From an uncultured Colwellia sp. (GTDB lineage: Bacteria > Pseudomonadota > Gammaproteobacteria > Enterobacterales > Alteromonadaceae), in contig CAJXQI010000003.1 in the NCBI GenBank assembly GCA_913058395.1, positions 186,001 to 250,000 on the forward strand: 64,000 nucleotides of DNA, given 5' to 3'. The translations under genes and the position numbers were made by a program. The stretch's first letter is position 1, and every line of letters begins with the position of its first letter. The notes under the pieces are model-generated. The model made no database searches, was not told where the DNA came from, and saw only the letters and a program-made list of their open reading frames with translations. This document shows positions 133 through 24,481 of this stretch, piece after piece.

Positions 133-1155
133 TTAACAAATAACCGTTGTTGCTTCTAAAAGTGTTGCGCTTCCACCCCAAAGTATTTCAGATAATGGTT
201 GCATAACACCTTGTTCAAACTCAAAGCCATGTTGACGATCATCACTAATTAAGAGTGGACCATCTAAATCAACAAACTTGGCTCCATTTACTAATAATGC
301 AGCAGGTGCCATGGCCAAAGAACTACCAACCATACAGCCCAACATTAAATCAAAGCCTTGCGCTTTTGCTTCTTGAGCTAATAAAACCGCTTCGGTTAAG
401 CCACCGGTTTTATCGAGTTTAATATTCACTACCTGATAACGGCCTTTTAAGTAATCAAGCTCGGCACGGGTATGACATGATTCATCTGCACATAGCGGCA
501 CAGGTGAAGAAAAGTTAATTAATGCTTGGTCTTGGCCAGCAGGCAGTGGTTGTTCAATAAGAACCACATTCAGTGCTTTTAGCTGCTCACAACAATGTTT
601 TAAGTCATCAATACTCCAACCTTCGTTGGCATCAACAATAAACTCACTGTTAGGTGCTGCTTGTTGAATCGCGGTCATTTTTTCGATGATATCTTGATTA
701 TCTAGTTTTACTTTTACTAACGGTGGATTGTTTAGTGCTGCGACGGCTTTAGCCATGGCTTCAGGGCTATCAATACTTAATGTTTGTGCGGTTATGCAAG
801 CTTGCGCGGGTGCAAGCTGTAATAATTTTGCTACTGAAGTTCCACGCTGCTTTGCTTGTAAATCCCACCAAGCACAGTCTAGTGCGTTACGTGCGGCACC
901 AGAGGGAAGGGCAATGATATATTCGTTGATGTTTTCAGTCGTAATTTTTTGTGCGGATAAAAGGTGTATTTGCTGACTAACATTATCAATAGACTCTTGA
1001 TAGCGCGCATAAGGCACTGCTTCTGACCAACCGGTATTTATGCCGTCACTAATGGCGACAACAACAACGTCTGCTTGTGTTTTAGCGCCACGAGCAATAC
1101 GAAAAACATTTTTCAATTGCAATTGTTGATGAGCAACCTGAATTGTTAGGTTCAT
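133..1155 (-). CDS. dgcA: N-acetyl-D-glutamate racemase / dipeptide epimerase-family enzyme
   Basis: A 340-aa enolase-superfamily protein of the L-Ala-D/L-Glu epimerase type. Visible signatures are the KVK acid/base motif at residues 148-150, metal ligands D175 (in VDANEGW), E201 (IEQP) and D224 (CADES), and the second catalytic lysine near 246 (NIKLDK). The gene starts 11 bp after dgcN on the same strand, so they are probably cotranscribed. In the published marine D-glutamate pathway DgcN acetylates D-Glu and DgcA racemises N-acetyl-D-Glu to N-acetyl-L-Glu. Being paired with dgcN favours this role over a pure murein dipeptide epimerase (YcjG/YkfB), but the two cannot be told apart from sequence alone. 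Confidence 0.8.
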   Translation of the reverse strand: MNLTIQVAHQQLQLKNVFRIARGAKTQADVVVVAISDGINTGWSEAVPYARYQESIDNVSQQIHLLSAQKITTENINEYIIALPSGAARNALDCAWWDLQAKQRGTSVAKLLQLAPAQACITAQTLSIDSPEAMAKAVAALNNPPLVKVKLDNQDIIEKMTAIQQAAPNSEFIVDANEGWSIDDLKHCCEQLKALNVVLIEQPLPAGQDQALINFSSPVPLCADESCHTRAELDYLKGRYQVVNIKLDKTGGLTEAVLLAQEAKAQGFDLMLGCMVGSSLAMAPAALLVNGAKFVDLDGPLLISDDRQHGFEFEQGVMQPLSEILWGGSATLLEATTVIC

Positions 1156-1166
1156 TGTGATTTCGC

Positions 1167-2165
1167 CTATGCCAACGTTGAAACGATACTGTCAGTGCCG
1201 TCACGCAGAGGATCAGCACAAGGCAAAGAAAACTGTTCACTTAGCTGTGCACAAATACGTTGACCTTCTTCAACACTCACGCTTGAAGTATTAACGGTAA
1301 TACCAACCACCTTAACATTTGGGTTTGTCAGCTTAGCTGCTTGAAGGTTTAACGCAATGGTTGCTTCAACACTAGGAAACTGGCTTTGTGGCAAACCACG
1401 CATATGGCTGCGGTTTAAGTCGTGACAAATAACTAGTGCGTCAGGTTGTGAGCCGTGTAATAACCCTAAACTTACGCCAGCAAACGCAGGGTGTGACAGC
1501 GAGCCTTGGCCTTCAATAATATCCCAATGTTCGGCGCTGTTATTTGGAGAAAGTGACTCGGTTGCCCCTGATAAAAAGTCAGAAATAACACAGTCAATGG
1601 CGATACCTTGGCCAGCGATTAAAATTCCACATTGACCTGTAGCACGAAAATCAACATCAAAACCAAGTTTCTTCATCGACTTTTCAAGGCTTAATGAGGT
1701 ATACATTTTACCAACCGAACAGTCAGTACCAACGGTAAGTAAGCGTTTACCTGTGCGTTTTACGCCAGTACCAGTAACAAATTCGGCTTTAGGATGACGA
1801 ATATCGAGCAATTGCTGTTGGGTTTGTTGTGCTTTTTCTACTATTTCTGGAAAATCGCTTAATTTATCATGCAAGCCTGAAACGATATCCATGCCGTTGT
1901 CCATTGCTTCTAGAATATAAGGTAACCATTTCTTATCAAGTACACCGCCACTGTTGGCAAAGCCTAATATGAATGACTTAGCGCCTTTAGCAGCTGCTTG
2001 TGCAATGTCCATTTTTTCAATGCCGGTGCTAACCGTACAACCGTCAACACTGTATTCACCAACACAAAGTTCAGGACGCCAATCTGCTGCACCACGTGCC
2101 ATTTTAATTGAAAGCTGGTCGGTGGCGTCACCAATAAATAACAGGTAAGGAGAAGCAATTTGCAT
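1167..2165 (-). CDS. dgcN: D-glutamate N-acetyltransferase (DUF1611 family)
   Basis: A 332-aa DUF1611-family protein with an N-terminal Rossmann-like half and a C-terminal half opening with a P-loop-like stretch, GTDCSVGKM, at residues 146-154. Members characterised in marine Pseudoalteromonas transfer an acetyl group to D-glutamate as the first step of D-Glu use. The gene lies between dgcR and dgcA with gltS upstream, the arrangement expected for that pathway. The start ATG at 2165 is preceded by an AGGAA-like ribosome site. The 123-bp gap to dgcR carries a LysR-type palindrome, so dgcNA probably has its own promoter. Confidence 0.8.
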   Translation of the reverse strand: MQIASPYLLFIGDATDQLSIKMARGAADWRPELCVGEYSVDGCTVSTGIEKMDIAQAAAKGAKSFILGFANSGGVLDKKWLPYILEAMDNGMDIVSGLHDKLSDFPEIVEKAQQTQQQLLDIRHPKAEFVTGTGVKRTGKRLLTVGTDCSVGKMYTSLSLEKSMKKLGFDVDFRATGQCGILIAGQGIAIDCVISDFLSGATESLSPNNSAEHWDIIEGQGSLSHPAFAGVSLGLLHGSQPDALVICHDLNRSHMRGLPQSQFPSVEATIALNLQAAKLTNPNVKVVGITVNTSSVSVEEGQRICAQLSEQFSLPCADPLRDGTDSIVSTLA

Positions 2166-2262
2166 AATGAAGTTCCTAAATTTAAATGCTGGAATAGCAG
2201 AGTTTTTCTAATTCCGAGCTTAACTTAGTGAGCAAACATTAAAAGTGAGAAGGCTTTTATCG

Positions 2263-2283
2263 ATCATAACCTGTGGTTATGAT
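2263..2283. promoter_or_regulatory. Candidate DgcR (LysR-type) operator upstream of dgcNA
   Basis: A perfect 21-bp inverted repeat, ATCATAAC-N5-GTTATGAT, contains a LysR-type T-N11-A core. It lies between the dgcR stop and the dgcN start, about 98 bp before the dgcN ATG. There is no T-run, so it does not look like a terminator. The inner 15 bp pattern recurs at 4707-4721. Binding by DgcR is inferred. Confidence 0.6.
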
Positions 2284-2288
2284 TCTAT

Positions 2289-3173
2289 TTAACTGTTTGA
2301 AATACCTTGGGTTAAATATGGTATAAATTCATCAATAACTTTAGATTTAGCTCTGTTTTCTAAATGCACAGCATTGATGTTAAAAGTAAGCGCAGGCTCA
2401 AACGAGGCGATAGCAACATTGTCTGACAAATTTCCTTCTGCGGTGTAGCGATCAACCACACATACGCCAAGTCCTCTGGCGACTAATCTAGCGGCAATAA
2501 AGTAGGTTTGCACCTTGATAGATGACGTAATACCAATATTTTCTTCCATCACCCGTGCCCACAACATATCAGCCAAGGGGCCGCTGTCACTTATGTCGAT
2601 AAACTCTGAATCGCAAACTTGGGTTAAGGTTAACTTATCTGGGCAATCAGGAAACTTGTCTTTTGGATAAACAATCACCAGTTCAGATTCTGCTAAAGGA
2701 ATTGAAGTAATACCCGGCATGCTATGTGGCGAGAATAAAATCGCTAAGTCGCACTTATGCTCAAGTAATGACTGCATGACAGCATCGTTATGAATGGTTT
2801 GAATATCGAAAGTGACATTTGGGTAATCTTGATGATAATTAGCAATTACATTTGGAATGGCATCAAACCCTAACGCAGGTGTTACCCCTAAAGCGATACT
2901 GCCAAATTCTGATTTTTTAATATTTTGTGCGGTATTTTTAATTGAACGCATTTGCTGATAAATCTTATCAACTTCATCAAACAGCATCTCTGCTTCATCA
3001 GTTGGAATAAGCCGACCTTTAACACGTTCAAATAAATTGAAGCCGAGTTGTAGTTCGGCATGTGACAATACTTTACTGACCGATGGTTGCGATACATGCA
3101 GTATTTTGGCTGCATTAGTAATTGAACCCGTAGTGTAAATGGCGTGAAAAATTTCAATGTGTCGTAAGCGCAT
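2289..3173 (-). CDS. dgcR: LysR-family regulator of D-glutamate catabolism
   Basis: A 294-aa LysR-type regulator. Residues 1-60 form the winged helix-turn-helix (MRLRHIEIFHAIYTTGSITNAAKILHVSQ..., with SQPSVSKVLSHAE as recognition segment). The rest is a periplasmic-binding-protein-like effector domain. It is placed between gltS and dgcN, all on the minus strand. DgcR is reported to activate dgcN and dgcA in Pseudoalteromonas, and D-Glu or its N-acetyl derivative is the likely inducer (inference). Candidate operators sit immediately downstream (2263-2283) and in front of gltS (4707-4721). Confidence 0.72.
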   Translation of the reverse strand: MRLRHIEIFHAIYTTGSITNAAKILHVSQPSVSKVLSHAELQLGFNLFERVKGRLIPTDEAEMLFDEVDKIYQQMRSIKNTAQNIKKSEFGSIALGVTPALGFDAIPNVIANYHQDYPNVTFDIQTIHNDAVMQSLLEHKCDLAILFSPHSMPGITSIPLAESELVIVYPKDKFPDCPDKLTLTQVCDSEFIDISDSGPLADMLWARVMEENIGITSSIKVQTYFIAARLVARGLGVCVVDRYTAEGNLSDNVAIASFEPALTFNINAVHLENRAKSKVIDEFIPYLTQGISNS

Positions 3174-3223
3174 TTAACGTCCTCAGTAAAGTTTGTTAGC
3201 TAATGTTTGTTAGCTAAAGTGAG

Positions 3224-4438
3224 TTAGCCACTCACAAATGGCAAGCTTAAATATAACTGTATAATCAAAGCATTGGTGATATCAATAAAAAATGCTCCAA
3301 CTAGTGGCACGACTAAAAATGCTTGTGGTGATGGACCGTGGCGAGAAACTAATGATTCCATATTAGCAACCGCTGTTGGTGTGGCTCCTAAGCCAAAACC
3401 ACAATGTCCACCAGCCATAATTGCGGCGTTATAGTTTTTACCCATCACCCTAAAGGTAATGAAATAAGCAAATAACATTAGCATGATTGCCTGAACAAAA
3501 ATCATAAATATCATCGGGCCCGCTAAACTCACCAGCTCCCATATTTTTAATGACATCAGCGCCATGGCAAGAAATATTGATAACGCCATTGTGCCCCATA
3601 AATCGATACAAGCACTACTGACTTTATACACTTTGGTGAACTCAGTGAGGTTAGTGATCACCACACCGAATAGTAATGGAATTAAAAATGCGGGTAACAC
3701 AACATCGATTGCTTTCAAAGCATCGTAGCCCATACGCCCTAAGTACATACATAGTAAAATAACGAAAAGTGTTTCCATCATTTTTCGTGGTGTTACTAAG
3801 TCGTGATCTTCAGGGTCAAAGGTAATCGTGTCGTCTAATTCTTCGTGGTAAGAGGTATCGGCTTTTAAATTATATTTTTTGATTAAGCGTTTACTGACGG
3901 GGCCACCGACTAAGCCACCTAGAATAAGTCCTAACGTTGCCGCTGCCATGGCTAATTCAAATACACTGCTATGCATGCCATATTCATTAATGAATAAATC
4001 GGCATAAGTTGCACCATTACCATGTCCGCCTGAAAGTGTGACTGAGCCGCCAATTAAGCCCATTAACGGTTCCATACCTGTGGCAGTTGCAATGGAAACA
4101 CCTATGGCATTTTGTACCAGCAGATACAAAGTGGCAACACCAAGAAAAAGCGCAACTTTTGGGCCGCCTTTAATTAATAACGTAAAGCTAGCACCTAAGC
4201 CAACTGTGGTAAAAAACACCGTCATTAATGGGTTTTTAAAAGCCATGTCAAATTGAAAATTCACATCAAAATAGACATGTGCTATTGCGGAAAGAACTGA
4301 AAACGCGATGCCACCAACAACGGGCTCTGGAATATTGTTGTTTTTAAGAAAAGTGATTTTGCTATTTAGATAATAACCGGCAAAAAGTATTAATAAAGCA
4401 ACTAAGAGTGTTTCTGCAGTAGATATTTCTATATTCAT
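3224..4438 (-). CDS. gltS: Sodium/glutamate symporter
   Basis: A 404-aa polytopic inner-membrane protein of the GltS (ESS) family, with about ten hydrophobic segments and typical glycine-rich re-entrant signatures such as SGGHGNGATYAD and GGHCGFGLGATPTA. It imports glutamate with Na+. E. coli GltS accepts both L- and D-glutamate, which fits its place as first gene of the leftward gltS-dgcR-dgcN-dgcA cluster. It ends 50 bp before dgcR. The start ATG at 4438 faces a 386-bp divergent region shared with the TonB receptor. Confidence 0.9.
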   Translation of the reverse strand: MNIEISTAETLLVALLILFAGYYLNSKITFLKNNNIPEPVVGGIAFSVLSAIAHVYFDVNFQFDMAFKNPLMTVFFTTVGLGASFTLLIKGGPKVALFLGVATLYLLVQNAIGVSIATATGMEPLMGLIGGSVTLSGGHGNGATYADLFINEYGMHSSVFELAMAAATLGLILGGLVGGPVSKRLIKKYNLKADTSYHEELDDTITFDPEDHDLVTPRKMMETLFVILLCMYLGRMGYDALKAIDVVLPAFLIPLLFGVVITNLTEFTKVYKVSSACIDLWGTMALSIFLAMALMSLKIWELVSLAGPMIFMIFVQAIMLMLFAYFITFRVMGKNYNAAIMAGGHCGFGLGATPTAVANMESLVSRHGPSPQAFLVVPLVGAFFIDITNALIIQLYLSLPFVSG

Positions 4439-4824
4439 ATGAGCATTTAACCTTTTTTAATGTGGCATATTTTCGTTTTTGGTTAGCGCATGATTCTTAT
4501 ATGGACAATGCATTGAATTTCGATTGTAAAGAGATAGTCGAACGATCAGCAGTTCAAAAACTTACGAGTGTCATAACCAAAAGCTTTACCTTGTTTGATA
4601 GCGTTACTGGATACCAACAGGAAAATTTTTTGCGCGGAAGCTTAGCATAATTAACCATAACGTAGCGCGATAGAATGAATAAATTGGCTGAATTTGTAAC
4701 TTTGCTATAACTTTAGGTTATGGGGTGTGAACGAAGTGTCAATAGTATTGCTTTCTATAATTGGGCATGGTGAATCTAGAAACTAGGATCGAATAAAAAT
4801 ATATTCGGCAACACAACATAATAA
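4439..4824. promoter_or_regulatory. Divergent regulatory region between gltS and the TonB receptor, with LysR-type box
   Basis: Non-coding, AT-rich region between divergent transcripts. At 4707-4721 it contains ATAAC-N5-GTTAT, the core of the palindrome found before dgcN. A DgcR-type regulator could act on both directions from here (inference). A 62-codon open frame at 4462-4650 shows no protein-like features and is not called. Confidence 0.5.
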
Positions 4825-7698
4825 ATGCAACTTATGACGGTGAGAGTGATGAAAGATATAACTAAAAACAGACATAAACTGAAGCATCTAAGCTTATGCG
4901 TAATTACAGCATTAGCAGCGCAAACTACTTTTATTCAACAAGCAAATGCTGAAGAAGCGGCAAAAGTAGAAGAAGTAGAACGTATTAGTATCATAGGTTC
5001 GAACATTAAAAGAGCCTCAGACATTGGTGCGTTGCCTGTAACCGCATTAACAGAGAAAGATATTGAAAATACGGGTGCTATGTCTGGTGATGAATTATTA
5101 CGTTCTATCCCTCAAATCGGTGCGGTTAACTTTGGCGCAGCAACTGGTAACGGTGGCGTTAATGATGCTCGTGGTGATGTAGCATCAATTAACTTACGTG
5201 GTGTTGGCTCAGGTAATACCTTAACACTATTAAATGGCCGTCGACTGGTTACTCATCCTGGTACGCAATCAGAAAACTTTGTTCCGGTTTCTACCTCTAA
5301 CTCAAATACCTTACCTGTTTCAGGCCTACGTTCGTTGCAAGTTTTACGTGATGGCGCAGCCGCTATTTACGGCTCTGATGCCGTAGCTGGTGTGGTAAAT
5401 TACCAATTAAAAGATGATTACGAAGGCAACCAAGTTAAATTGTCTTATGGTGGTTCAGAAGGTACTTCACTCGACGAAACAACTTTTAGTTATTTGACAG
5501 GTTTTGATTTAAACGAAGGCCGCTCGCATTTAACCGCTTCTTTTAGTTATTATGACCGTAACGGTATGATGGCAAGTGAACGTCCATATTCAGCAAGTCA
5601 TGATTTGCGTGAATACCCAGGTTTACCAGAAGAATTCATTGGTGATACCCAATTAGATAACCGTTCTACCGCAACACCTTGGGGTGATTTTCAATCAGAT
5701 GCTTTAGGTCGATTCCATATCCAACCTGACAGCAACTCTGGTTGTGTGGTTGATTTAGCAGGTGGAGTTTGTGCTGATAGTGGCAGCTTTCCTCGCGATT
5801 TACGCTTCGACCGCGGTACTACTCGCTCACTGGTTTCTGATGTTAATCGCTTAAACTTATATACTTATTTTACTCATGAAATAAACAGCGATTTAGACTT
5901 CTTTTCAGAAGTCACTTATTACAGTGCAAAAGCTGAACGTACTCGTGAACAAACCCATAACCTAACCGCACAACGTTTCCGTATTTCTGCTGATGCTGCC
6001 CACAATCCATTCGGTGAAGAAGTTTTATTACGCAGCTACCGAGCGATTGATACCGGACCTCGAAATGTTGAAGTTGACGATACTAGCTACCGAGTATTAG
6101 GTGGTTTGAAAGGTTCATATAACGATTGGGATTGGGAAACAGCGGCATTTTATACTGAAGCTGAAACAAATGATTCAGCCAACCGTATTCAAGCGAGCAA
6201 GTTTCAAGCATCCATTAATAGCACTGATCCAACATTAGCCTATAACATCTTTACCGGTGGCGATGTTAATAATCCAAATAGTGGTGATACAACGTTAAAT
6301 CCACAAAGTGTTATTGACCAGTTTATGGTTAATGTTAATCGTGATTCAAAAACTAGCTTAGCATCAGTTGATTTTAAGGTAAGTAATGGCTCACTTTGGA
6401 CATTGCCAGCAGGTGACGTTGGCATAGCAATGGGTGTTGAATTTAGACGTGAAACGTTTGAAGATGATCGCGATCCACTACTTGATGGTAGTAATCCTTT
6501 TGTTGATGCCGTTACAGGTGTCGAATTATCAGGTAGTGATGTATTGGGAAGTAGCCCAACGCCAGACTCAAAAGCATCACGTAATGTTACATCAGCTTAC
6601 GCTGAGTTTTTAGTACCACTTGTTGATTCTGGTTCTCACTATGTTGAATTACAAGTTGCAGGCCGATATGAAAACTTTTCTGATGTTGGTAGCGCAGTAA
6701 AACCAAAAGTAGCGTTATTCTGGGAACCAGCTGACTGGATTAGCTTCCGTGCATCATATGCAGGTGGCTTCCGTGCTCCAGGTTTACCACAAGTTTCAGC
6801 AGAAGGTGTACCTCGTTCAAATAGCTTATACGACCCGGTACTTGACTCAACTTATGGTATTGTTGATATTCGCAGTGGTACTACCGACTTAAAACCAGAA
6901 GATGATGAAAATACGTCATTTGGTTTGATATTTGAGCCACTTGATAACCTTACGTTCACCATAGATACTTGGAAAATTAAGCAAAAAGATCTCGTGGGTA
7001 TTTTACCTGGTTCATCACACTTACTTTATGATTCATTGCTAAGAAGCGAAGGCTCAAGCAATACTGCAGTCGTTCGTGATGCTAATACCAATGAAGTTAT
7101 TCAAATCAATAATGACTATTTGAATTTAGGCGTGAGAAATATCGAAGGTGTTGATTTCAGTTTAATTTATGATTTTGAAACAAGCTTTGGTGATTGGGAA
7201 TTTACGGTTAATGCTGCGAAACTGAATAAATTTGAGCAAGAAGCCGATTCAATTTCTGCACAACTTATTGCCGCACAAGCAGCAGGTAACCCTGCGGTTC
7301 CAGCCGATAGAACAGTTGCAGGTGCTGGTGACTTAATTAAACAAAATGGTCGCCCAGAATGGCGTGCAAGAGTTTCACTTGATTGGGATTACAATCAATG
7401 GGGCGCAGGCATTAACGCTAACTACGTCAGTGAAGTGATTGATACTAGTACTACTGCAACAACGGTTGACGACGAAGTGATTATGTTGCCAGTTGATAGT
7501 TTTACTAAAGTGAATGTATATGCAGACTACCGTTTTGCTGATGACAGTGCATTAGACGGCACTAAAATTCGCTTTGGTGTACGCAATATTGGTGACGAAG
7601 AGCCACCACTTGCTGATGAGCTAGCACATGGTTATTTCGGCGCATTGCATTCGAATCGTGGTCGTTACTTTTACATGAGCGTAAGAAAAGACTTCTAA
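4825..7698 (+). CDS. TonB-dependent outer-membrane receptor
   Basis: A 957-aa outer-membrane transporter. It has a signal peptide ending near AQTTFIQQANAEEA, a plug domain (about residues 50-190, with SNIKRASDIGALPVTALTEKDIE and the LLNGRRLV / RDGAAAIYGSDAVAGVVN signatures) and a large beta barrel ending in the aromatic YFYMSVRKDF. ATG 4849 (MKDITKNRHK) is an alternative start that gives a more usual signal peptide. The receptor is divergent from the D-Glu operon and followed by an M14 carboxypeptidase and a D-aminoacylase-like gene. A ligand containing D-amino-acid peptides, perhaps murein fragments, is inferred, and the substrate is not readable from sequence. Confidence 0.92.
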   Translation: MQLMTVRVMKDITKNRHKLKHLSLCVITALAAQTTFIQQANAEEAAKVEEVERISIIGSNIKRASDIGALPVTALTEKDIENTGAMSGDELLRSIPQIGAVNFGAATGNGGVNDARGDVASINLRGVGSGNTLTLLNGRRLVTHPGTQSENFVPVSTSNSNTLPVSGLRSLQVLRDGAAAIYGSDAVAGVVNYQLKDDYEGNQVKLSYGGSEGTSLDETTFSYLTGFDLNEGRSHLTASFSYYDRNGMMASERPYSASHDLREYPGLPEEFIGDTQLDNRSTATPWGDFQSDALGRFHIQPDSNSGCVVDLAGGVCADSGSFPRDLRFDRGTTRSLVSDVNRLNLYTYFTHEINSDLDFFSEVTYYSAKAERTREQTHNLTAQRFRISADAAHNPFGEEVLLRSYRAIDTGPRNVEVDDTSYRVLGGLKGSYNDWDWETAAFYTEAETNDSANRIQASKFQASINSTDPTLAYNIFTGGDVNNPNSGDTTLNPQSVIDQFMVNVNRDSKTSLASVDFKVSNGSLWTLPAGDVGIAMGVEFRRETFEDDRDPLLDGSNPFVDAVTGVELSGSDVLGSSPTPDSKASRNVTSAYAEFLVPLVDSGSHYVELQVAGRYENFSDVGSAVKPKVALFWEPADWISFRASYAGGFRAPGLPQVSAEGVPRSNSLYDPVLDSTYGIVDIRSGTTDLKPEDDENTSFGLIFEPLDNLTFTIDTWKIKQKDLVGILPGSSHLLYDSLLRSEGSSNTAVVRDANTNEVIQINNDYLNLGVRNIEGVDFSLIYDFETSFGDWEFTVNAAKLNKFEQEADSISAQLIAAQAAGNPAVPADRTVAGAGDLIKQNGRPEWRARVSLDWDYNQWGAGINANYVSEVIDTSTTATTVDDEVIMLPVDSFTKVNVYADYRFADDSALDGTKIRFGVRNIGDEEPPLADELAHGYFGALHSNRGRYFYMSVRKDF

Positions 7699-7727
7699 TT
7701 CTTAGCACGTGGTTTCAATAATATAAT

Positions 7728-7764
7728 ATGGCTCGGCTTTTAAAAAATAGTCGAGCCATTTTTC
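7728..7764 (+). terminator. Terminator after the TonB receptor
   Basis: ATGGCTCG (7728-7735) pairs with CGAGCCAT (7752-7759) and is followed by a short T-run. Partial termination would set receptor levels apart from the downstream peptidase genes. Confidence 0.65.
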
Positions 7765-7795
7765 TCACATTAATACTAATTTTTAAGATGTTATT

Positions 7796-8980
7796 ATGAA
7801 AAAACAACTACTTATTTGCACATGGTTATTTTCAATTGTTTTATTGGCGTCATGCGCTGAAACAACGACAGTCAATGAGAGTAATAATGCGCAAGCATGT
7901 GATACTGGCGCTGTAAAGTTAATAGCAGACTTTGAAGCAAGTCGCATGGATGAGTGTATTAACCAAGGCAACAATAAATTTGTTATTACCATTAAGCCTG
8001 AAAACACGCCAATTAATTCAAGCCCTTGGTATGCGTTTAAAGTGGTGGCGGATCAGCCAACACAAGTAAAAGTGACTATTCAAATTGCTGGCAAAAGGTT
8101 TAATCGCTACTTGCCTAAAATCAGCTACGATATGGCGACGTGGCGTACCCATACTCATAAAATTCGTGGTAAACGACTAGAATTTAATATCGATGCCTCA
8201 CCGAAAGTACTTTATATTGCTGCACAAGAAGTGATTAATAATCAGTACTATGTTGATTGGGCTAAAAAATTACAACAAATCAGTGATGTTAAACAAAGTG
8301 TTTTAGGACAATCACTACAAGGTCGTCCTATTTACAAAATTGAAAGTCACAGTGACAGTAAAGAATGGCTGGTAATTTTAGGTCGTTTACATCCGCCAGA
8401 AATAACCGGCGCGTTAGCGTTATTTCCTTTTGTTGAAACTTTATTAGCGAATAACTCATTTGCTGACAGTTTTCGCCAAAAATACAACCTGCTTATTATT
8501 CCAAATTTAAATCCAGACGGTGTTGCCATGGGCAACTGGCGTCACAATGCCAATGGCGTTGATTTAAACCGTGATTGGATCACATTCAAACAACCGGAAA
8601 CTCAGCAAGTGCATCAATACTTACAAGACCTAGTTGCTGACGGGCAAAAGATAAAATTTGCTGTTGATTTTCACTCTACTCAGCACGATGTTTTTTACAC
8701 TATGCCGGTTGATTACGGTGTTGAAGACCGCTACTTTGTTAAGCATTGGCTTGGTGCTTTAGATAAAGCCATGCCAAATTTTGAGGTGGTTCAAAAGCCA
8801 GGTAATCGACCTAACAATGGTGTTTCAAAACAATATTTTGCTGATAATTATAATGTCCATGCAATAACATATGAAATGGGTGATGAAACTAACCGTGATA
8901 ATATTGATATTATTGCCAATAACGCCGCGGTGTTATTAATGAAAACCTTGATGTCAGCAACCGATCACAATAAAGAGTAA
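7796..8980 (+). CDS. M14-family zinc carboxypeptidase, lipoprotein
   Basis: A 394-aa protein with a lipoprotein signal (lipobox LLASC). A beta-rich N-terminal domain (about 60-170) precedes an M14 carboxypeptidase domain: zinc ligands HxxE in LGRLHPPEITGA, the NGVDLNRDW substrate-binding motif, the third zinc ligand in DFHSTQHDVFY, and a probable catalytic Glu in ITYEMGDE. Lipid anchoring implies periplasmic or outer-membrane action. The stop is 7 bp before the next gene, so the two form an operon. In this setting it may trim peptides containing D-residues or gamma-D-Glu bonds, as the M14 enzyme MpaA does (inference). Confidence 0.85.
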   Translation: MKKQLLICTWLFSIVLLASCAETTTVNESNNAQACDTGAVKLIADFEASRMDECINQGNNKFVITIKPENTPINSSPWYAFKVVADQPTQVKVTIQIAGKRFNRYLPKISYDMATWRTHTHKIRGKRLEFNIDASPKVLYIAAQEVINNQYYVDWAKKLQQISDVKQSVLGQSLQGRPIYKIESHSDSKEWLVILGRLHPPEITGALALFPFVETLLANNSFADSFRQKYNLLIIPNLNPDGVAMGNWRHNANGVDLNRDWITFKQPETQQVHQYLQDLVADGQKIKFAVDFHSTQHDVFYTMPVDYGVEDRYFVKHWLGALDKAMPNFEVVQKPGNRPNNGVSKQYFADNYNVHAITYEMGDETNRDNIDIIANNAAVLLMKTLMSATDHNKE

Positions 8981-8987
8981 GTTATTC

Positions 8988-10592
8988 ATGCCAAATAGAT
9001 TCAAGCGAATTTTACCCACTGCCTTGCTAGTTAGCAGCGTATTAGCACTTTCCGCTTGTTCTGAAAACAAGCCAGCTAATGATAATAATGCCGTAAGTGA
9101 TGTAGAGCAAATAACGGTAGATACTTTAATTACCAATGGCAGTGTTTACACCGGTATTAAAACAGCACCACAAGCACTAGATATTGCGATATGTGGCAGT
9201 GAAATTTGTGGTGTGTATCCAACAGGCACGCATTCAGTTAACGCGAAAACTACCCTTGATGCTACGGGAAAAATTGTTAGCCCAGGCTTTATCGACCCGC
9301 ATACTCATACTTTAGAAGAGCTATACAGCAAAGATAAAAACAGTAACTTAAATTACCTGACGCAAGGTGTAACTACAGTTGTGAACGGTAATGACGGCGA
9401 AGGCCCGGTTGATATTGCAAAAACGGCACGCGAATTAGAAGCGAATGGTATTGGTACCAATGTCGCATTACTAGTTGGTCATGGTAGTGTACGTGAACAA
9501 GTGATGGGGCGCGCGCAACGCTTTGCCAGTGCTGAAGAATTAGCAACAATGTCACAGTTGTTAACGCAAGCGATGGAAGCTGGGGCATTAGGGCTATCAA
9601 CTGGTTTGTACTATGTGCCTGGCAGCTTTGCTAATACCGAAGAAGTGGTAACGCTAGCAAAAATAGCCAGTAAATATAACGGCATATACGATACTCATTT
9701 ACGTGATGAAAGCACTTTTAACATCGGTTTTATTGCCGCACTGGCTGAAGCAATTCATATTGCGGACACCGCTGATATTCATCTACACCTTGCTCATATT
9801 AAAGCCTTGGGCGTTGATGTTTGGGGGCAAAGTAGTGTCGCTATTGAAAAAATAGAACAAGCACAAGCACAGGGCACAAGTATTTCTGCCGACCAATACC
9901 CGTGGCTTGCCTCTGGTACTAAACTACGCAGCGCAGTTATGCCTAAATGGGTAATGGCCGACTCACAACAAGCTTTTCATCAGCGCTTAAATGATGCGAG
10001 TTTAACTGAAAAATTAAGCGCCGAAATAAAAGAAAATATTCGTCGTCGCGGTGGGCCAAAGTCTTTGCTTATTACTGCGTTTAACGACCCTGAGTTGGTT
10101 GGTTTGACTTTGGCGCAAGTTGCAGAAAAAAGAGCGATTGACCCTGTAACAACGGCAATGAAGTTGGTACAAGAAGGTGAAGTTCGTGTCGCTTCTTTTA
10201 ATATGTCGCCTAATGATGTAGAAGCTTTTATGGTGAAACCTTGGGTGGTAACTTCTTCTGATGGAACAAATGGTCATCCGCGTAAATTTGCTAGTTTCCC
10301 ACAAAAATATCAAGAATATGTTCAGAAAAAAGGCCTGCTAACTTTAGGGGAATTTATCAATCAAAGTTCAAGCAAAACCGCGAAAATATTAGGTTTTCAA
10401 GACCGAGGTCAGCTACGTAAAGGTTACCAAGCAGACATTATTGTTTTTGATGCCAATACCTTAGCAGCAAATGCCAACTTTTCGACTTGGAATAAGTATT
10501 CTTCTGGTATCGAACAAGTGTGGGTTAATGGCCAGCAAGTCATCAAAGACAGCCAGTACCAAGATAAGCTGGTAGGAAAATTTGTTCATTAA
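8988..10592 (+). CDS. N-acyl-D-amino-acid deacylase-like amidohydrolase, lipoprotein
   Basis: A 534-aa amidohydrolase-superfamily protein with a lipobox near residue 24 (LALSACSENK). The metal site begins with DPHTHT (about 105) after SPGFIDP. Further ligands probably lie in the DTHLRDE and LHLAHIKALG segments, and a late SSDGTNGHP motif is typical of the D-aminoacylase/dihydroorotase group. The family removes N-acyl groups from D-amino acids or opens related amides. It is cotranscribed with the M14 peptidase and adjacent to the N-acetyl-D-Glu genes, so it may process N-acylated D-amino acids or D-terminal peptides in the periplasm (inference). Confidence 0.8.
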   Translation: MPNRFKRILPTALLVSSVLALSACSENKPANDNNAVSDVEQITVDTLITNGSVYTGIKTAPQALDIAICGSEICGVYPTGTHSVNAKTTLDATGKIVSPGFIDPHTHTLEELYSKDKNSNLNYLTQGVTTVVNGNDGEGPVDIAKTARELEANGIGTNVALLVGHGSVREQVMGRAQRFASAEELATMSQLLTQAMEAGALGLSTGLYYVPGSFANTEEVVTLAKIASKYNGIYDTHLRDESTFNIGFIAALAEAIHIADTADIHLHLAHIKALGVDVWGQSSVAIEKIEQAQAQGTSISADQYPWLASGTKLRSAVMPKWVMADSQQAFHQRLNDASLTEKLSAEIKENIRRRGGPKSLLITAFNDPELVGLTLAQVAEKRAIDPVTTAMKLVQEGEVRVASFNMSPNDVEAFMVKPWVVTSSDGTNGHPRKFASFPQKYQEYVQKKGLLTLGEFINQSSSKTAKILGFQDRGQLRKGYQADIIVFDANTLAANANFSTWNKYSSGIEQVWVNGQQVIKDSQYQDKLVGKFVH

Positions 10593-10664: not shown

Positions 10665-11411
10665 ATGGCAAAATATGGCTTTATTTTAACTTGTTTGATC
10701 TGTCTGAACCTTCACGCTTATGAAGCAGAAAGACGAGTTATTAGAGCGGCTGTCGCTGAAGAATTTAAAGATGGGCTGCACAGTAAATACTTAAAATATT
10801 TTGCTGACAAACTCAATGTAACGCTTGAATTATCCACTATGCCTTTTGCTAGGCGTTTGCTTCAAATAGAAAATGGCAAACTAGATTTAATTGTTGGTAT
10901 TCAAAGAACTGAAGAACGACAAGATGAGTTTATTTATATTCTGCCACATTATGAAACCCTGTCGTATCGTGTTTTTACTTTAAAAGAAAACCATCAAAAT
11001 ATAAAAACCTATCAAGATCTTACCGGTAAATATGTTGGCATTAATCGTTACTCTAAATACTTTAGTTCTTTTGACAATGATGATGAAATCAATAAATTCA
11101 GAGCGTCAGGAGTTCTACAAAATATCGAATTACTATTGCGTAATCGCATTGATGCTTTTATGCATTATGAGGAAAGTACCTTGCCGTTATTAGCAAAAAT
11201 AGGGGAAAAAAATAGTATTGTAAAAACGCTTTATCAGCCAGAGTATGAAACTCGTCATTACCTCGCAATATCAAGTCATTCGCCACTAAAAGCTCGTAAG
11301 ATCGAGCTAGAAGAAATAATTAAAACTGCTATTAGTAATAAAGACTTACTGACCATTCGTTTAAATCATTATGCCGATATTCATATGCGCGATGCTGCGT
11401 TAGCACAGTAG
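10665..11411 (+). CDS. Periplasmic solute-binding protein (SBP_bac_3-like)
   Basis: A 248-aa protein with an N-terminal signal peptide (MAKYGFILTCLICLNLHAYEAE). It is followed by an extracellular solute-binding fold of the amino-acid family (RRVIRAAVAEEF..., MPFARRLLQIENGKLDLIVGIQRTEERQD, YQDLTGKYVGINRYS). No permease or ATPase lies nearby, so it is an orphan binding protein that could feed a remote transporter or act as a sensor. It starts 72 bp after the deacylase and may share its transcript. The ligand is unknown. Confidence 0.75.
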   Translation: MAKYGFILTCLICLNLHAYEAERRVIRAAVAEEFKDGLHSKYLKYFADKLNVTLELSTMPFARRLLQIENGKLDLIVGIQRTEERQDEFIYILPHYETLSYRVFTLKENHQNIKTYQDLTGKYVGINRYSKYFSSFDNDDEINKFRASGVLQNIELLLRNRIDAFMHYEESTLPLLAKIGEKNSIVKTLYQPEYETRHYLAISSHSPLKARKIELEEIIKTAISNKDLLTIRLNHYADIHMRDAALAQ

Positions 11412-11854: not shown

Positions 11855-11902
11855 TATCCCAACTTAAACAGCACAAACTTTTACACACAAGTGGAGATAA
11901 GC

Positions 11903-12472
11903 ATGTATCAATCAATTATCAATTCAAAAATTAAACCTTTTAACGCAACAGCATTTAGTAACGGTGACTTCGTTGAAGTTTCAGAAGCAGATGTTGCTGG
12001 CAAATGGTCAGTGTTCTTCTTCTACCCAGCTGACTTTACGTTTGTATGTCCGACTGAATTAGGCGACATGGCTGACCACTACAGCCAGCTACAAGAAATG
12101 GGCGTTGAAGTTTACTCAGTATCTACTGACACACATTTTACGCATAAAGCATGGCACGACAGTTCAGACACTATTAACAAAATTCAATATCCAATGATTG
12201 GTGACCCAACAGGAAAAATTACACGTAATTTCGGTGTGATGATCGAAGATGATGGTTTGGCATTACGCGGTACTTTTGTGATTAACCCTGAAGGTGAAAT
12301 AAAAATTGCTGAAGTACATGACCTAGGTATTGGCCGCTCAGCAAAAGAATTAGTTCGTAAAATTCAAGCTGCACAATATGTTGCAGAGCACGACGGTGAA
12401 GTATGTCCAGCTGCATGGCAGCCAGGTGCTGAAACATTAGCTCCTTCTTTAGACTTAGTTGGCAAAATCTAA
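11903..12472 (+). CDS. ahpC: Alkyl hydroperoxide reductase subunit C (peroxiredoxin)
   Basis: A typical 2-Cys peroxiredoxin of 189 aa. It has the peroxidatic Cys in [12 protein letters not shown] (about residue 47) and the resolving Cys in GEVCPAAW (about 166). It reduces H2O2 and organic peroxides and is recycled by AhpF encoded next. The frame can be extended to a GTG at 11891, but GGAG just before ATG 11903 and the family N-terminus ([13 protein letters not shown]) favour ATG 11903. A near-consensus OxyR site lies upstream. Confidence 0.96.
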
Positions 12473-12605
12473 AAGCCAAATTTAAAAAACTAAGTCTTAA
12501 TCTGTCGCGGTGTTATCAACTCATGCCGCGGCAGTACCTAGAGTAAAGTAAAACCAAAAACTTAAAAGTTTCCCAATTCAATATTCATTTTCCAAGGAAT
12601 AAACC

Positions 12606-14207
12606 ATGCTAGATACGAACTTAAAGCAACAACTAACGACCTATTTACAAAATTTAACCTCGGCTGTTGAATTGTCGATATTTTTAGGTGATGACCTTAA
12701 ATCAAAAGAATTAAAATCATTAGTGTCAGACATTGCCGAAATGTCGACGTTAGTGACAGTAGTAGAAGCTGACCCAACCAATGAACGTGTGCCATCAATG
12801 CTGGTTAAATCAGTAAAAACAGGTGGTGAAATACGTTTTGCCGGTGTGCCTATGGGTCACGAGTTTACCTCTCTGGTTTTGGCGTTATTGCACAGTGGTG
12901 GACACCCAATAAAACTTGATAAAGAAGTTATCGAGCAAGTAGCCGCTTTAGAAGGCGAATATAGCTTTGAAACTTACATTTCCTTGAGCTGTCAAAATTG
13001 TCCTGATGTTGTACAAGCATTAAATATGATGGCAGCAATTAACCCGCAAATTAAACATGTGATGGTTGATGGCGCGCTTTTTCAAGAAGAAGTTTATAAA
13101 CGTGATATTTTATCTGTTCCCGCGGTATATCTAAACGGTCAGGTGTTTGGTCAAGGCAGAATGACCATTACCGAAATTTTAAATAAAGTTGATACCAACG
13201 CTGGTGCTCGCCAAGCAGCAGTTATTAATGAAAAAGAAGCCTTTGATTTACTAGTGATTGGTGGCGGCCCAGCAGGTGCCGCCTCTGCTATTTACAGCGC
13301 ACGAAAAGGTATTCGCACGGGTATTGTTGCCGACCGGTTTGGCGGACAAGTGCAAGATACTATGGCAATAGAAAACTTTATTTCAGTCAGCGCTACAGAA
13401 GGGCCTAAATTGGTGGCTAGCCTAGAGGCGCATGTAAAAGACTATGACGTTGATATTATGAATGATCAGCGGGTGAAAAATATTATTGAAAGTGATGAAG
13501 AAGGCGGCCTAATCACCGTTGAACTAGAAAATGGTGCTAGCTTGCAAACCCGTTCTACCATTATTGCTACTGGGGCAAGATGGAGAGAAATGAACGTTAC
13601 CGGTGAACAAGAATATCGTGGCAAAGGTGTTGCTTACTGCCCGCATTGTGATGGCCCATTATTCAAAGGCAAATCAGTTGCGGTAATTGGTGGTGGTAAC
13701 TCAGGTATTGAAGCGGCAATTGATTTAGCCGGTATTGTTGAACATGTTACCGTGTTGGAGTTTGATTCTGTATTACGTGCTGATGCCGTATTGCAAAATA
13801 AGGCGCGTTCATTAGCCAATATTGAAATCATTGTTAATGCTCAAACCACAGAGGTACTAGGTAATGGTAAGCATGTTACGGGGCTAAACTACTTGAATCG
13901 TGCGACTAACGAGCAAGAAAATGTCGAACTTGCCGGGATATTTGTACAAATTGGTTTAGTGCCAAACTCACAGTTTTTACAAGGCAGTGTTGAATTAACT
14001 GAACGCGGTGAAGTCGTTACTAATCAAAAAGGCGAAACCAATATGGCAGGTGTTTATGCCGCAGGTGACGTAACTGATTCGCCATTTAAACAAATTATCA
14101 TTGCCATGGGCAGTGGCGCAACAGCAGCACTAGGCGCATTCGATTACTTAATTAGAACGCCTAACCCTAATGAACTAACTGCAGAAAACCAAGAAGTAGC
14201 GGCGTAA
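12606..14207 (+). CDS. ahpF: Alkyl hydroperoxide reductase subunit F
   Basis: A 533-aa flavoprotein disulfide reductase that passes electrons from NADH to AhpC. The N-terminal double-thioredoxin domain (about 1-200) has the redox pair CQNC near residue 130. A thioredoxin-reductase-like part follows, with the FAD motif GGGPAG (about 220), active-site YCPHCDG (about 345), NAD(P) motif GGGNSG (about 362) and the C-terminal [12 protein letters not shown] flavin motif. It lies 133 bp after ahpC in the same direction. Length is close to the 521 aa of the E. coli protein. Confidence 0.96.
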
Positions 14208-14251
14208 GCTATTTACGTGTCACCAATGTTAGAATTTTTAGTTAGAATTTT

Positions 14252-14285
14252 AAAAGCGCATACTCTCGCCGAGTTGCGCTTTTTG
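14252..14285. terminator. Bidirectional terminator between ahpF and oxyR
   Basis: AAAAGCGCA (14252-14260) and inner ACTC pair with GAGT and TGCGCTTTT (14275-14283), leaving a 5-nt loop and one bulge. U-runs on both strands suit the convergent genes. Confidence 0.8.
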
Positions 14286-14300
14286 TTCTAACAGAGCGGA

Positions 14301-15203
14301 TTAGTCTTTAAACAAAGGCGCTACTGATTCGCGAACAGAAGTAGCAATAGCTCTAACGCAATCCATTCTTGCATAACCTGATCGGCACAATAGTGATATT
14401 TCTCGTATTGGCTCTGGCTGTGAAAAAGGAATGTAGCGAATGTCTTTATTCGACAACGGATTTAATGTTGCCAATTTTGGTAGCAATGTAATGCCCATAT
14501 TACTCGCGACCATATAACGCAAAGTTTCTAAGCTTGTTGCCCTAAAACTATGGTCTTCTTCTGCACCAGCACTAAAACAATAGCCCATGGCTTGGTCTCT
14601 TAAGCAGTGACCGTCTTCCAAGGTAAGAATTTTCTGCTGTTGCAAGTCGTCAAAACTAACTTGCTTTTTACCTGCAAACTCGTGCTGTTGAGAAGTTGCC
14701 ATTACCAATGGCTCGGCAAATAAATCATAACGTTCAAAGCGCTCCATTTCAGGCAACCAAGGTAAAATTAAAATATCGAGCTTACCTTGCTCTAACTGCT
14801 GAAGAAGATCTTTAGTTCTGTTTTCATGTAGATAAAAGTTAATTTTAGGTAAGGCACTATTTAACGCAGGTATAATATGGGGCAAAGCGTAAGGTGCTAA
14901 CGTTGGAATTAAACCAATATGTAAATCACCCGATAAAGGGTCAAGTAATGCTTTTGCTGCCTCTTCAAAATTACTCGCCGCGTTTAGCACTTGCCTGGCT
15001 TCTTGAATCAGTTTTTCACCGGCTGGCGTTAGCATAACATTCCGTGTTTTTCGCTCGATTAAGGTGAGCTTTAATCTTTGTTCAAGCTTTTGAATTTGTC
15101 CGCTCAAGGTTGGCTGACTAACAAAGCATGCTTCTGCGGCATGGCCGAAGTGTTTATGTTCAGCGATAGCAATCAAATACTCTAAATCACGAATTTTTAT
15201 CAT
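14301..15203 (-). CDS. oxyR: Hydrogen-peroxide-sensing LysR regulator OxyR
   Basis: A 300-aa LysR-type regulator. It has an N-terminal winged helix (MIKIRDLEYLIAIAEHKHFGHAAEACFVSQPTLSGQIQKLE) and a regulatory domain holding the two redox cysteines in LEDGHCLRDQAMGYC, the same arrangement as Cys199/Cys208 of E. coli OxyR. Peroxide forms a disulfide there and turns on antioxidant genes. It is convergent with ahpCF, whose promoter holds an OxyR-type site. Confidence 0.95.
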   Translation of the reverse strand: MIKIRDLEYLIAIAEHKHFGHAAEACFVSQPTLSGQIQKLEQRLKLTLIERKTRNVMLTPAGEKLIQEARQVLNAASNFEEAAKALLDPLSGDLHIGLIPTLAPYALPHIIPALNSALPKINFYLHENRTKDLLQQLEQGKLDILILPWLPEMERFERYDLFAEPLVMATSQQHEFAGKKQVSFDDLQQQKILTLEDGHCLRDQAMGYCFSAGAEEDHSFRATSLETLRYMVASNMGITLLPKLATLNPLSNKDIRYIPFSQPEPIREISLLCRSGYARMDCVRAIATSVRESVAPLFKD

Positions 15204-23479: not shown

Positions 23480-24481
23480 TTTGAAGTGCAACCAAAGTAA
23501 TTATTCATAAAAGCATTCCTGTGGTGTTTTATAGCCCAGTCGTTTTCTTGGTCTTGTATTTAATTTAGCGGCGATGACATTACATCGTTGCTGAGTTAAG
23601 CCTTCCATCGATGTTCCTTTAATCAAATATTGTTTTATCAAACCATTGGTATTTTCATTCGTACCACGCTCCCAAGAGTGATGTGGGTTGGCAAAGTAAT
23701 AAGGGCAGTTAGTTGCTTCTTCAACTTTCTTATATTGATGAAATTCAGTACCGTTATCTGAAGTGATAGTTTTAAATTCCCCAGGCATTGTACTCATTAG
23801 CTTTATCGTTCGGTTATTGGTTGATTTGGTTGTTCTATCGTTTAACTGGCCTATTAACGTGTAGCCAGTTTTTCGCTCAACGAGTGTGACAATGCAATGT
23901 TTAGAGCCTTTTCCCATGACAGTATCTATTTCCCAATGGCCTTTGGTTTTACGCGTTTCTACTTCGCTAGGCCGGTCAGCTATGTTGCGCTTATCGGCAA
24001 GTCGGCCTCGGCTGTCATAGGCTTTGTAGCGCTTACGCCTTCGTTTATTTGCACAACGTAACTGCTTCCATAACAAGCCGCCTTTCTTTTTATCACGCCA
24101 AATATAGCGATAAATAGTCTCATGACTAAAGCAGCGAAGACCTTGGCGTTTTAAATGCCCAGTTATTTGTTCAGGACTCCATTGTTTGCGTAATAGCTGC
24201 CTAACAATGGTGTAATCTTTCTCTGTAAAATGTTGGTTTCGCCGTGAACGTCTATGCCTTGCTCGTGTCCGTCGTTGAGCTTTTGTTGGTCGATAAGAGC
24301 CATCAATAATCCAGCAACTGTTACGGTTTACCTCTCGATAAATCGTACTTCTGTCTCTATTCTTTGCTTTTGCAATGTTAGTAAAGCTTAAGCCTTGCCT
24401 TTTTAATGCGGCTAACGTATATCTATCATCTTCGGTGAGCTGCTTGTAATTCATAGTGTTTTACTTCTTGGCGGGAGCAAA
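23480..24481 (-). mobile_element. IS30-family insertion sequence (about 1.0 kb)
   Basis: A single transposase gene fills the element. Terminal inverted repeats are only tentatively placed: TTTG-N11-AAGTAA occurs at the left end (from about 23480) and, inverted, at the right end (to about 24481). No certain target duplication is seen. It sits where the attC of cassette 5 should be and faces against the cassettes. Confidence 0.65.
23501..24454 (-). CDS. IS30-family transposase
   Basis: A 317-aa DDE transposase. The N-terminal helix-turn-helix (MNYKQLTEDDRYTLAALKRQGLSFTNIAKAKNRDRSTIYREV) recognises the ends. The catalytic core shows D in HWEIDTVMGKGSK, D in TSDNGTEFHQY and E in GTNENTNGLIKQYL. 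It appears full length and intact, so the element may be mobile. It lies opposite in direction to the cassette genes. Confidence 0.92.
   Translation of the reverse strand: MNYKQLTEDDRYTLAALKRQGLSFTNIAKAKNRDRSTIYREVNRNSCWIIDGSYRPTKAQRRTRARHRRSRRNQHFTEKDYTIVRQLLRKQWSPEQITGHLKRQGLRCFSHETIYRYIWRDKKKGGLLWKQLRCANKRRRKRYKAYDSRGRLADKRNIADRPSEVETRKTKGHWEIDTVMGKGSKHCIVTLVERKTGYTLIGQLNDRTTKSTNNRTIKLMSTMPGEFKTITSDNGTEFHQYKKVEEATNCPYYFANPHHSWERGTNENTNGLIKQYLIKGTSMEGLTQQRCNVIAAKLNTRPRKRLGYKTPQECFYE

Follow-up and report, generated by a model that had tools for sequence, protein, structure and literature searches.

A predicted D-glutamate scavenging module with a putative shared DgcR operator in an uncultured Colwellia

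The window analysed here is a stretch of 64,000 nucleotides from an uncultured Colwellia sp. (assembly GCA_913058395.1, contig CAJXQI010000003.1), G000:C3:186001-250000 in the handles used below for genomes (G), contigs (C) and loci (L), and it belongs to a genome of 4.39 Mb that is 99.96% complete. Near its left end gltS-dgcR-dgcN-dgcA run leftward, and a TonB-dependent receptor, an M14 metallocarboxypeptidase and a D-aminoacylase-like amidohydrolase (the deacylase) run rightward from the same divergent promoter, with a gap of seven bases between M14 and deacylase; the last three genes are termed the arm. This island is probably a DgcR-controlled module for scavenging D-glutamate (D-Glu), the D-Glu being freed from gamma-D-glutamyl peptides. 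An earlier note on this DNA had proposed the coupling of the dgc genes to such an arm, and a conserved layout, a fusion of M14 and deacylase in relatives and a shared putative operator support this. Compared with that note, the module is larger and also more modular. No description of the arm was found in the open-licence literature searched on dgcN/dgcA, DgcR, D-aminoacylase, muropeptides and poly-gamma-glutamate, and the term "TonB" is absent from two dgcN papers.

In the route proposed the TonB receptor would bring small gamma-D-glutamyl peptides into the periplasm, where an exported CapA-family protein, encoded just left of the window, would prepare or bind them. The M14 lipoprotein would take off the residue on the gamma-carboxyl of D-Glu and the D-aminoacylase-like lipoprotein would cut the acyl or aminoacyl group from its amino group, after which D-Glu would be taken up by GltS, or by an NhaC-like carrier in relatives. 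DgcN is predicted to acetylate D-Glu and DgcA to racemise N-acetyl-D-Glu to N-acetyl-L-Glu, and a deacetylase encoded elsewhere would yield L-Glu. The direction of transport, every substrate and the role of CapA are what we infer from this arrangement. The earlier note had called the island complete, which goes too far: the CapA/PGA_cap gene had been missed, and none of the island genes was recognised as one for the conversion of N-acetyl-L-Glu to L-Glu.

All seven open reading frames (ORFs) are intact, with bounds exactly as the earlier note gave them, and DgcA, DgcN and GltS score above curated cut-offs (Table 1). dgcN is the single match in the whole genome. For the LysR gene no NCBIfam model passed its cut-off among the 25 of 54 matches listed, and the name dgcR is given from its position and its conservation with dgcN; it also keeps with the arm in G003, G111 and G006, where dgcN is not adjacent. 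The N termini of M14 (LASC) and deacylase (LSAC) are lipobox-like by pattern match in the identical copy L017. The closest named genome found, in a pattern-based scan of named genomes, is that of Cognaticolwellia mytili, with a DgcN of 99% identity. A DgcN/DgcA/DgcR pathway for D-Glu was reportedly worked out by Yu et al. in 2023 in Pseudoalteromonas sp. CF6-2 (ISME J 17:537, cited in PMC12363236). The island resembles it in adjacent dgcN and dgcA equivalogs above their NCBIfam cut-offs and in a LysR regulator upstream and differs from the CF6-2 pathway, as reportedly described, in that dgc is linked to the arm and CapA, with a shared putative operator.

Conservation was surveyed at DgcN loci of named genomes and in 394 genomes of the order. 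Among 14 loci of the first kind, from one pattern-based scan, seven have the arm in the same place (L002-L008: five Cognaticolwellia/Colwellia, one Litorilituus, one Pseudoalteromonas phenolica) and the other seven (L009-L015) carry no receptor, M14 or deacylase. In the order the arm adjoins dgcR-dgcN-dgcA in eight of the 394 genomes (G000, G134, G041, G165, G061, G073, G272, G303; the G165 deacylase is interrupted by a contig end), and a ninth case, G096, is split across two contigs which both end inside the same carrier gene. Families f1, f7 and f16 also keep the layout, and f4 has receptor-M14-deacylase and dgcR without adjacent dgcN. Such conservation of layout is more than chance.

Orthologs of dgcN are present in 57 of the 394 genomes (66 with distant homologs, nine with a best match of only 35-39% being excluded) and M14 in 25, 11 of which hold only a more distant M14 gene unlinked to deacylase or CapA. 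Deacylase matches occur in 15 genomes; those 14 whose identity is at least 47% are counted and G263 (38%) is not. The earlier note had raised the prospect that the trio occurs mostly without dgc genes, and in this order that is not so: 11 of the 14 deacylase genomes have dgcN, which is adjacent in nine (split G096 counted), and in 13 of them, G121 being the exception, M14 lies on the same stretch as dgcR, gltS or a substitute carrier. By these linkage counts the arm is rarely found without dgc-type genes. Neighbourhoods were examined for part of the 57 dgcN genomes, and modules outside them would be visible because the deacylase, M14 and CapA searches covered all 394. Variants of the arrangement exist. 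In G160 receptor and M14 adjoin dgc and a gamma-glutamyltransferase behind M14 replaces the deacylase; in G003, G111 and G152 the arm stands with dgcR and/or gltS and no adjacent dgcN, the dgcN of G003 lying elsewhere; a contig of G006 begins with dgcR-gltS-receptor-M14, the deacylase being 25 kb off; and in G121 receptor and deacylase form a pair that is not linked to the rest. Pairs of a related M14 and a TonB receptor gene were also seen at loci that lack dgc (L043, L045, L049-L052) and may be part of a wider peptide-uptake family; some lie beside DASS carriers (L043, scanned; L045, by eye) and others, L049-L052, behind sigma-factor and FecR-like genes (by eye).

Promoters of the module share a palindrome, ATAACCTNAGGTTAT (ATAACC-N3-GGTTAT), found in dgcR-dgcN intergenic regions and before receptor and CapA genes, and DgcR presumably binds it; its T-N11-A form is typical of LysR sites. 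A matrix was made from nine dgcN promoters of arm-less loci, with sites picked by consensus, and set against 505 control promoters. All 16 dgcN promoters outside the training set scored above the 99th percentile of the controls (15 above their maximum), as did 11 of 15 CapA promoters (nine above the maximum), and every one of 19 receptor promoters exceeded the best control; these counts are not independent because several loci are close relatives, the window and L002 being nearly identical. Upstream of M14 there is no site in 19 cases, and upstream of dgcR there are three in 28, two of them in an intergenic region common with the receptor. Within the window only the places at 2266 and 4707 have 12 or more of 14 matches, where mononucleotide shuffles lead one to expect 0.4 per 64 kb; the former, ATAACCTGTGGTTAT, is one of four exact ATAACYNNNRGTTAT places in the 4.39 Mb, and a third site, with 12 matches, lies 79 bp before capA. 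A stricter pattern, with at most one mismatch, occurs at 80 places in 16 further genomes against 40 for the reversed control, and among the 13 exact matches listed, in a listing with no row for G061, 11 are in modules and two, both of G152, are inside predicted ORFs. Inspection of five operator-like places outside modules placed these two and one of G134 in predicted ORFs, and two of G000 beside unrelated genes. One of the latter two, the exact palindrome at G000:C11:24944-24958, precedes a murJ-like gene (named by eye) by about 14 bp and is probably due to chance.

The site also goes with partners that have moved or been exchanged. A 12/14 site lies upstream of the G160 gamma-glutamyltransferase and close upstream of the deacylase and of the CapA gene in G006, both of which lie apart from receptor and M14 there; a site precedes the LysA-like gene of G003 described below, and others are found before the receptor of the G121 pair and, in another order, in the receptor/dgcR-like intergenic region of G636 and G731. 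At eight distant dgc-less M14-receptor loci no site of 12 or more matches was found before either gene.

Table 1. Positions in the window of the island genes, the neighbouring solute-binding protein gene and the putative operators
Feature	Position	Strand	Details
dgcA, N-acetyl-D-glutamate racemase (predicted)	133..1155	-	340 aa; NCBIfam NF042940 434.6 bits, cut-off 400
dgcN, D-glutamate N-acetyltransferase (predicted)	1167..2165	-	332 aa; NCBIfam NF041892 504.6 bits, cut-off 480
Putative DgcR operator ATAACCTGTGGTTAT in dgcN promoter	2266..2280		13/14 consensus matches
dgcR-type LysR regulator	2289..3173	-	294 aa; Pfam HTH_1 and LysR_substrate
gltS, sodium/glutamate symporter (predicted D-Glu uptake)	3224..4438	-	404 aa; TIGR00210 442.3 bits, cut-off 310.75
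Putative DgcR operator ATAACTTTAGGTTAT in gltS/TonB-receptor divergent promoter	4707..4721		consensus match
TonB-dependent receptor	4825..7698	+	957 aa; Pfam TonB_dep_Rec_b-barrel and Plug
M14 metallocarboxypeptidase, lipoprotein; predicted cut C-terminal to gamma-D-Glu	7796..8980	+	394 aa; Peptidase_M14 PF00246 66.6 bits, cut-off 21.6
D-aminoacylase-like amidohydrolase, lipoprotein; predicted D-Glu release from N-acyl/N-aminoacyl group	8988..10592	+	534 aa; Amidohydro_3 87.8 bits, cut-off 29.7
Family 3 solute-binding protein, lineage-specific addition, membership uncertain	10665..11411	+	Pfam SBP_bac_3 39.9 bits

Carrier and exit enzyme are apparently interchangeable. GltS is replaced as carrier by an NhaC-like protein in P. 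phenolica and others. The exit enzyme is DgcN/DgcA at most arm loci, but the dgc genes are not obligatory: a LysA-like protein is encoded at the locus in three genomes and a DadA-like one in two. The LysA-like pyridoxal phosphate (PLP) enzyme takes the place of dgcN/dgcA in G003, G111 and G152 (L040:14487-15770, L041:13492-14799, L044:3832-5109), each of which has a canonical LysA elsewhere; in two of the three, with genomes 88% and 95% complete, no dgcN match was found. It keeps the PLP Lys and both Arg of the distal carboxylate, in which it is like diaminopimelate decarboxylase and the engineered D-amino acid decarboxylases as given in the available part of PMC8277567, where Glu315 binds the distal amine of diaminopimelate (DAP), and it departs from them in having Phe at this Glu in 3/3 cases. 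The canonical LysA has Glu315 in 4/4 (G111, G152, G003, G000). The reading as a second DAP decarboxylase is rejected for the change of Glu315 and the presence of the canonical LysA. Since the distal-amine Glu is Phe, DAP is an unlikely substrate and D-Glu fits; the sequence predicts a D-amino acid with only a distal carboxylate, such as D-Glu, which would give gamma-aminobutyrate (GABA). An omega-aminotransferase and a succinate-semialdehyde dehydrogenase adjoin the gene in G111 and were not seen beside it in G003 and G152. The DadA-like protein is found in another order, at the locus of G636 and, the L066 copy having been compared by eye only, of G731, with dgcR-like, DadA-like, M14 and deacylase genes collinear in both. 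Naganuma in 2018 reportedly dealt, to go by the title, with induction of D-amino acid dehydrogenase by D-glutamate. The common currency of these swaps is a D-amino acid, and D-Glu where dgc is present.

The exported CapA/PGA_cap gene (G000:C3:182353-184419) lies left of the window, its end being 1.7 kb away from dgcA and 1.6 kb away from the edge of the window. Between it and dgcA lie one PEP-CTERM-like gene and one ArgR-like gene; the latter, an ArgR-family paralog (L016:18444-18941 in G000:C3), adjoins capA in L002, L003, L004 and L007, and a regulatory link is possible because the DgcA product, N-acetyl-L-Glu, is an arginine precursor. CapA matches are present in 18 compared loci, partial and at the locus edge in L005 and L006, and 16 of these loci have receptor and M14 on the same stretch, the remaining two being this window's left flank and one of the halves into which the G096 locus is split. 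None was found in the 21 arm-less dgcN loci examined. In the order 14 of the 394 genomes have a CapA ortholog (two of the 16 matches, G302 and G366, both at 31%, being excluded), all 14 with M14 and 13 with deacylase, and the Fisher p values for this co-occurrence are 2e-19 (M14) and 3e-22 (deacylase) with relatedness ignored. In G000 capA is the only PGA_cap match and PgsB has no match in the genome, and a role in a synthesis operon for poly-gamma-glutamate (gamma-PGA) is therefore rejected for this genome.

A structural model of CapA was built from 13 of 16 full-length sequences, the near-duplicates L002 and L027 and also L022 being left out. It has a pLDDT of 81, and its best fold match, at E 5e-21, is to the lasso peptide epimerase MslH, against 1.6e-8 for the next match that is unrelated, with further matches that include carbohydrate-binding modules. 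Both His/Asp dyads of MslH, His88/Asp91 and His295/Asp11, have counterparts in CapA, H207/D210 and H339/D116, invariant in 16 sequences; His88, Asp91 and His295 were aligned by HMMER and Asp11 was matched by motif only. With MslH as described in the accessible portion of PMC10406935 the protein shares this fold and these dyads, and it differs in an identity of 16% by structural alignment, in one of four metal ligands not conserved (Ser307 at the place that by motif corresponds to His261), in being exported and in having extra N-terminal and carbohydrate-binding-module-like C-terminal domains; the MslH equivalog scores 50.2 bits against a cut-off of 700. A peptide epimerase is possible on this model, and the dyads are no proof of such an activity because the same positions serve in phosphoesterases.

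The M14 protein has H199, E202, N258, R259, H293 and E360 invariant in 17 sequences, which we take to be the zinc and catalytic residues of the HxxE, Asn-Arg, His and Glu positions. Its PDB matches show a likeness to cytosolic-carboxypeptidase-like enzymes. A Lys 15 residues before the catalytic Glu is invariant in the 33 of 35 sequences whose motif can be read, at what is presumably, the position being reached by counting, the place where M14 enzymes that prefer acidic residues carry a basic one; this Lys does not discriminate, since M14 genes from outside the module have it as an invariant residue too. In G111 M14 and deacylase make up a single ORF of 880 aa in which both Pfam domains are present, and in G152 they share one open frame that runs for at least 827 aa and is truncated where the contig starts. 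Because of these fusions consecutive steps on one substrate are suggested.

For the deacylase the nearest PDB sequences and folds are D-aminoacylases and OngB; an AlphaFold model (pLDDT 81) has the D-aminoacylase fold, the top nine Foldseek matches being D-aminoacylases or OngB. The protein keeps most of the D-aminoacylase active-site residues (the HxH, His, Lys, Asp and Arg positions), and the earlier description "D-aminoacylase-like" thus holds for fold and most active-site residues and fails at the metal-binding Cys, which is Asp. Set beside AfDam, BbDam and PpOngB, as far as the available excerpt of PMC12017989 describes them, it is alike in fold and in those residues and differs in being a lipoprotein, in an invariant Asp for the metal-ligand Cys and in an insertion loop that cannot be aligned. 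In other orders, too, L065 and L067 have Asp at the same position. An OngB-type GlcNAc1A deacetylase would be compatible with the fold and is disfavoured by genomic context. L067 (in G405) is a cluster of deacylase, GltS, TonB receptor and two gamma-glutamyltransferase-like genes with no dgc and no operator.

Several observations weigh against a DgcR-controlled scavenging module. The choice of training sites was not blind, because the motif was first seen by eye in all promoters, and the best control promoter, at 12.1, lies in this very window, upstream of the gene at 23500-24454 (-), which is possibly a further DgcR target or a chance hit. In the whole of G000 a loose exact pattern is found at four places, two of them in the island, against six for the reversed control, and since the reversed pattern is as frequent or more so it is the location of the sites and not their number that informs. 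Four of the 15 CapA promoters have no good site, and P. phenolica has no CapA within the 21 kb locus examined. On the enzyme side M14 scores 27.7 bits against a cut-off of 157 for the MpaA murein tripeptide amidase equivalog, and membership of the MpaA family is rejected for this margin. In the deacylase Asp136, invariant in 14 sequences, stands where the metal ligand Cys96/97 is expected, and owing to this Asp the protein is not classed with the N-acyl-D-Glu deacylases, even if its action may resemble theirs; for an equivalent of BbDam Arg295, the residue for the gamma-carboxylate, the insertion loop stays unaligned in HMMER with the D-aminoacylases shown, BbDam not being among these, and no Arg was seen at the spacing. 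The L065 protein of G636 falls short of the DadA subfamily cut-off, with 350 bits to 383. Amidase, AmpG and amino-sugar genes were not recognised by eye at the few arm loci inspected. Finally the deacylase is absent from 46 of the 57 dgcN genomes of the order.

This last count, together with the eight loci where related M14-receptor pairs exist with neither dgc nor a site of 12 or more matches, is what would be expected if the arm served an unrelated nutrient and merely adjoined dgc. Against this the palindrome is found before dgcN and receptor throughout the tested loci, and before the receptor in another order too, and the linkage persists while exit enzyme and carrier swap; on these grounds of operator and enzyme swaps a chance neighbourhood is rejected as very improbable.

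With the module taken as a scavenger of D-Glu, the substrate is most likely muropeptides such as L-Ala-gamma-D-Glu-meso-diaminopimelate, a choice about which confidence and doubt are in near balance. Two lipoproteins and their fusion match this tripeptide, since two hydrolases suffice to free its D-Glu: M14 would open the gamma-D-Glu-DAP bond in the manner of MpaA, and the deacylase the L-Ala-D-Glu bond. Escherichia coli recycles murein tripeptide via MpaA, YcjG and PepD, MpaA cutting the gamma-D-Glu-DAP bond. The predicted module is like this route in an M14 enzyme for that bond and in an epimerase of the DgcA-like family (the YcjG model gives 332.5 bits, with a cut-off of 343), and unlike it in exported enzymes, D-Glu freed outside the cytosol, an outer-membrane receptor and an N-acetyl route, all of these being predicted. 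Peptidoglycan is an important marine source of D-Glu according to the accessible part of PMC10845958.

A substrate with gamma-glutamyl bonds is indicated by both the CapA family and the gamma-glutamyltransferase partners, and gamma-PGA would fit as well. It is the main rival to muropeptides: CapA would bind the polymer or its oligomers, which are rich in D-Glu, M14, with a gamma-glutamyltransferase in some relatives, would trim them, the deacylase would split the last dipeptide, and D-Glu and L-Glu would be imported. Among the D-Glu pools of the sea gamma-PGA is not known to be a major one. CapA/PGA_cap recurs as a member of the module, and the lack of PgsB in G000 leaves it not looking like part of a synthesis operon; gamma-glutamyltransferase genes lie near the module, dgcN or the deacylase in G160, G006, G384 and G405; and the likeness of M14 to cytosolic-carboxypeptidase-like enzymes and its Lys at the presumed acid-preference position would suit a polymer of Glu. 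The Lys, however, is not peculiar to the module, the epimerase MslH shares the PGA_cap fold, and hydrolases of gamma-PGA of the PghP type belong to another family, M86, as the available portion of PMC6506827 has it, and are not among the PDB matches of M14. Altogether gamma-PGA utilisation appears unlikely.

Similarly doubtful is a broader scavenging of free N-acyl-D-amino acids or of diverse peptides with D residues, in which there would be no single polymer and D-Glu would be one product of several. The deacylase is about equally near to D-aminoacylase, OngB and N-acyl-D-Glu deacylase structures, and a DadA-like gene takes part at the G636 and G731 loci. The receptor diverges strongly between close relatives, being only 53% identical to that of the window in L004 and L005 where the neighbouring dgcN is at 89%, which suggests replacement or diversifying selection, and owing to this divergence its ligands may differ. 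Regulator, palindrome and carrier are nevertheless those of the D-Glu genes at most arm loci, and DgcN and DgcA are annotated as D-Glu enzymes.

A bolder form of the gamma-D-glutamyl peptide reading is offered as a tentative suggestion, one more apt to fail than to hold. On it the island would stand for a class of modular outer-membrane loci for D-Glu utilisation that is new, run by DgcR via ATAACC-N3-GGTTAT, which would capture a defined D-Glu polymer (peptidoglycan stem peptides or gamma-PGA), with a secreted CapA-family epimerase that would make D-residue peptides cleavable by M14, and with three interchangeable exits, one of them a LysA-family D-glutamate decarboxylase feeding the GABA shunt.

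D-Glu of peptidoglycan is an important and slowly used part of marine organic matter, and the known dgc pathway starts at free D-Glu, whose origin the module would explain. The operator and four marker genes give a regulon signature by which such loci may be found and tested. Two orphan activities would also gain a biological setting: that of an exported PGA_cap/CapA protein in a bacterium with no detectable PgsB, and that of LysA paralogs which should not act on DAP.

To the right of the deacylase, the gene for a family 3 solute-binding protein lies near the arm in L002-L006 and G006 also, and the Cognaticolwellia island possibly extends rightward to include it. Further 3' (11891-15203 of the window) are an AhpC-like peroxiredoxin, an AhpF-like reductase and an OxyR-like LysR gene, all named by eye, and the peroxiredoxin is again found downstream in L002-L004.

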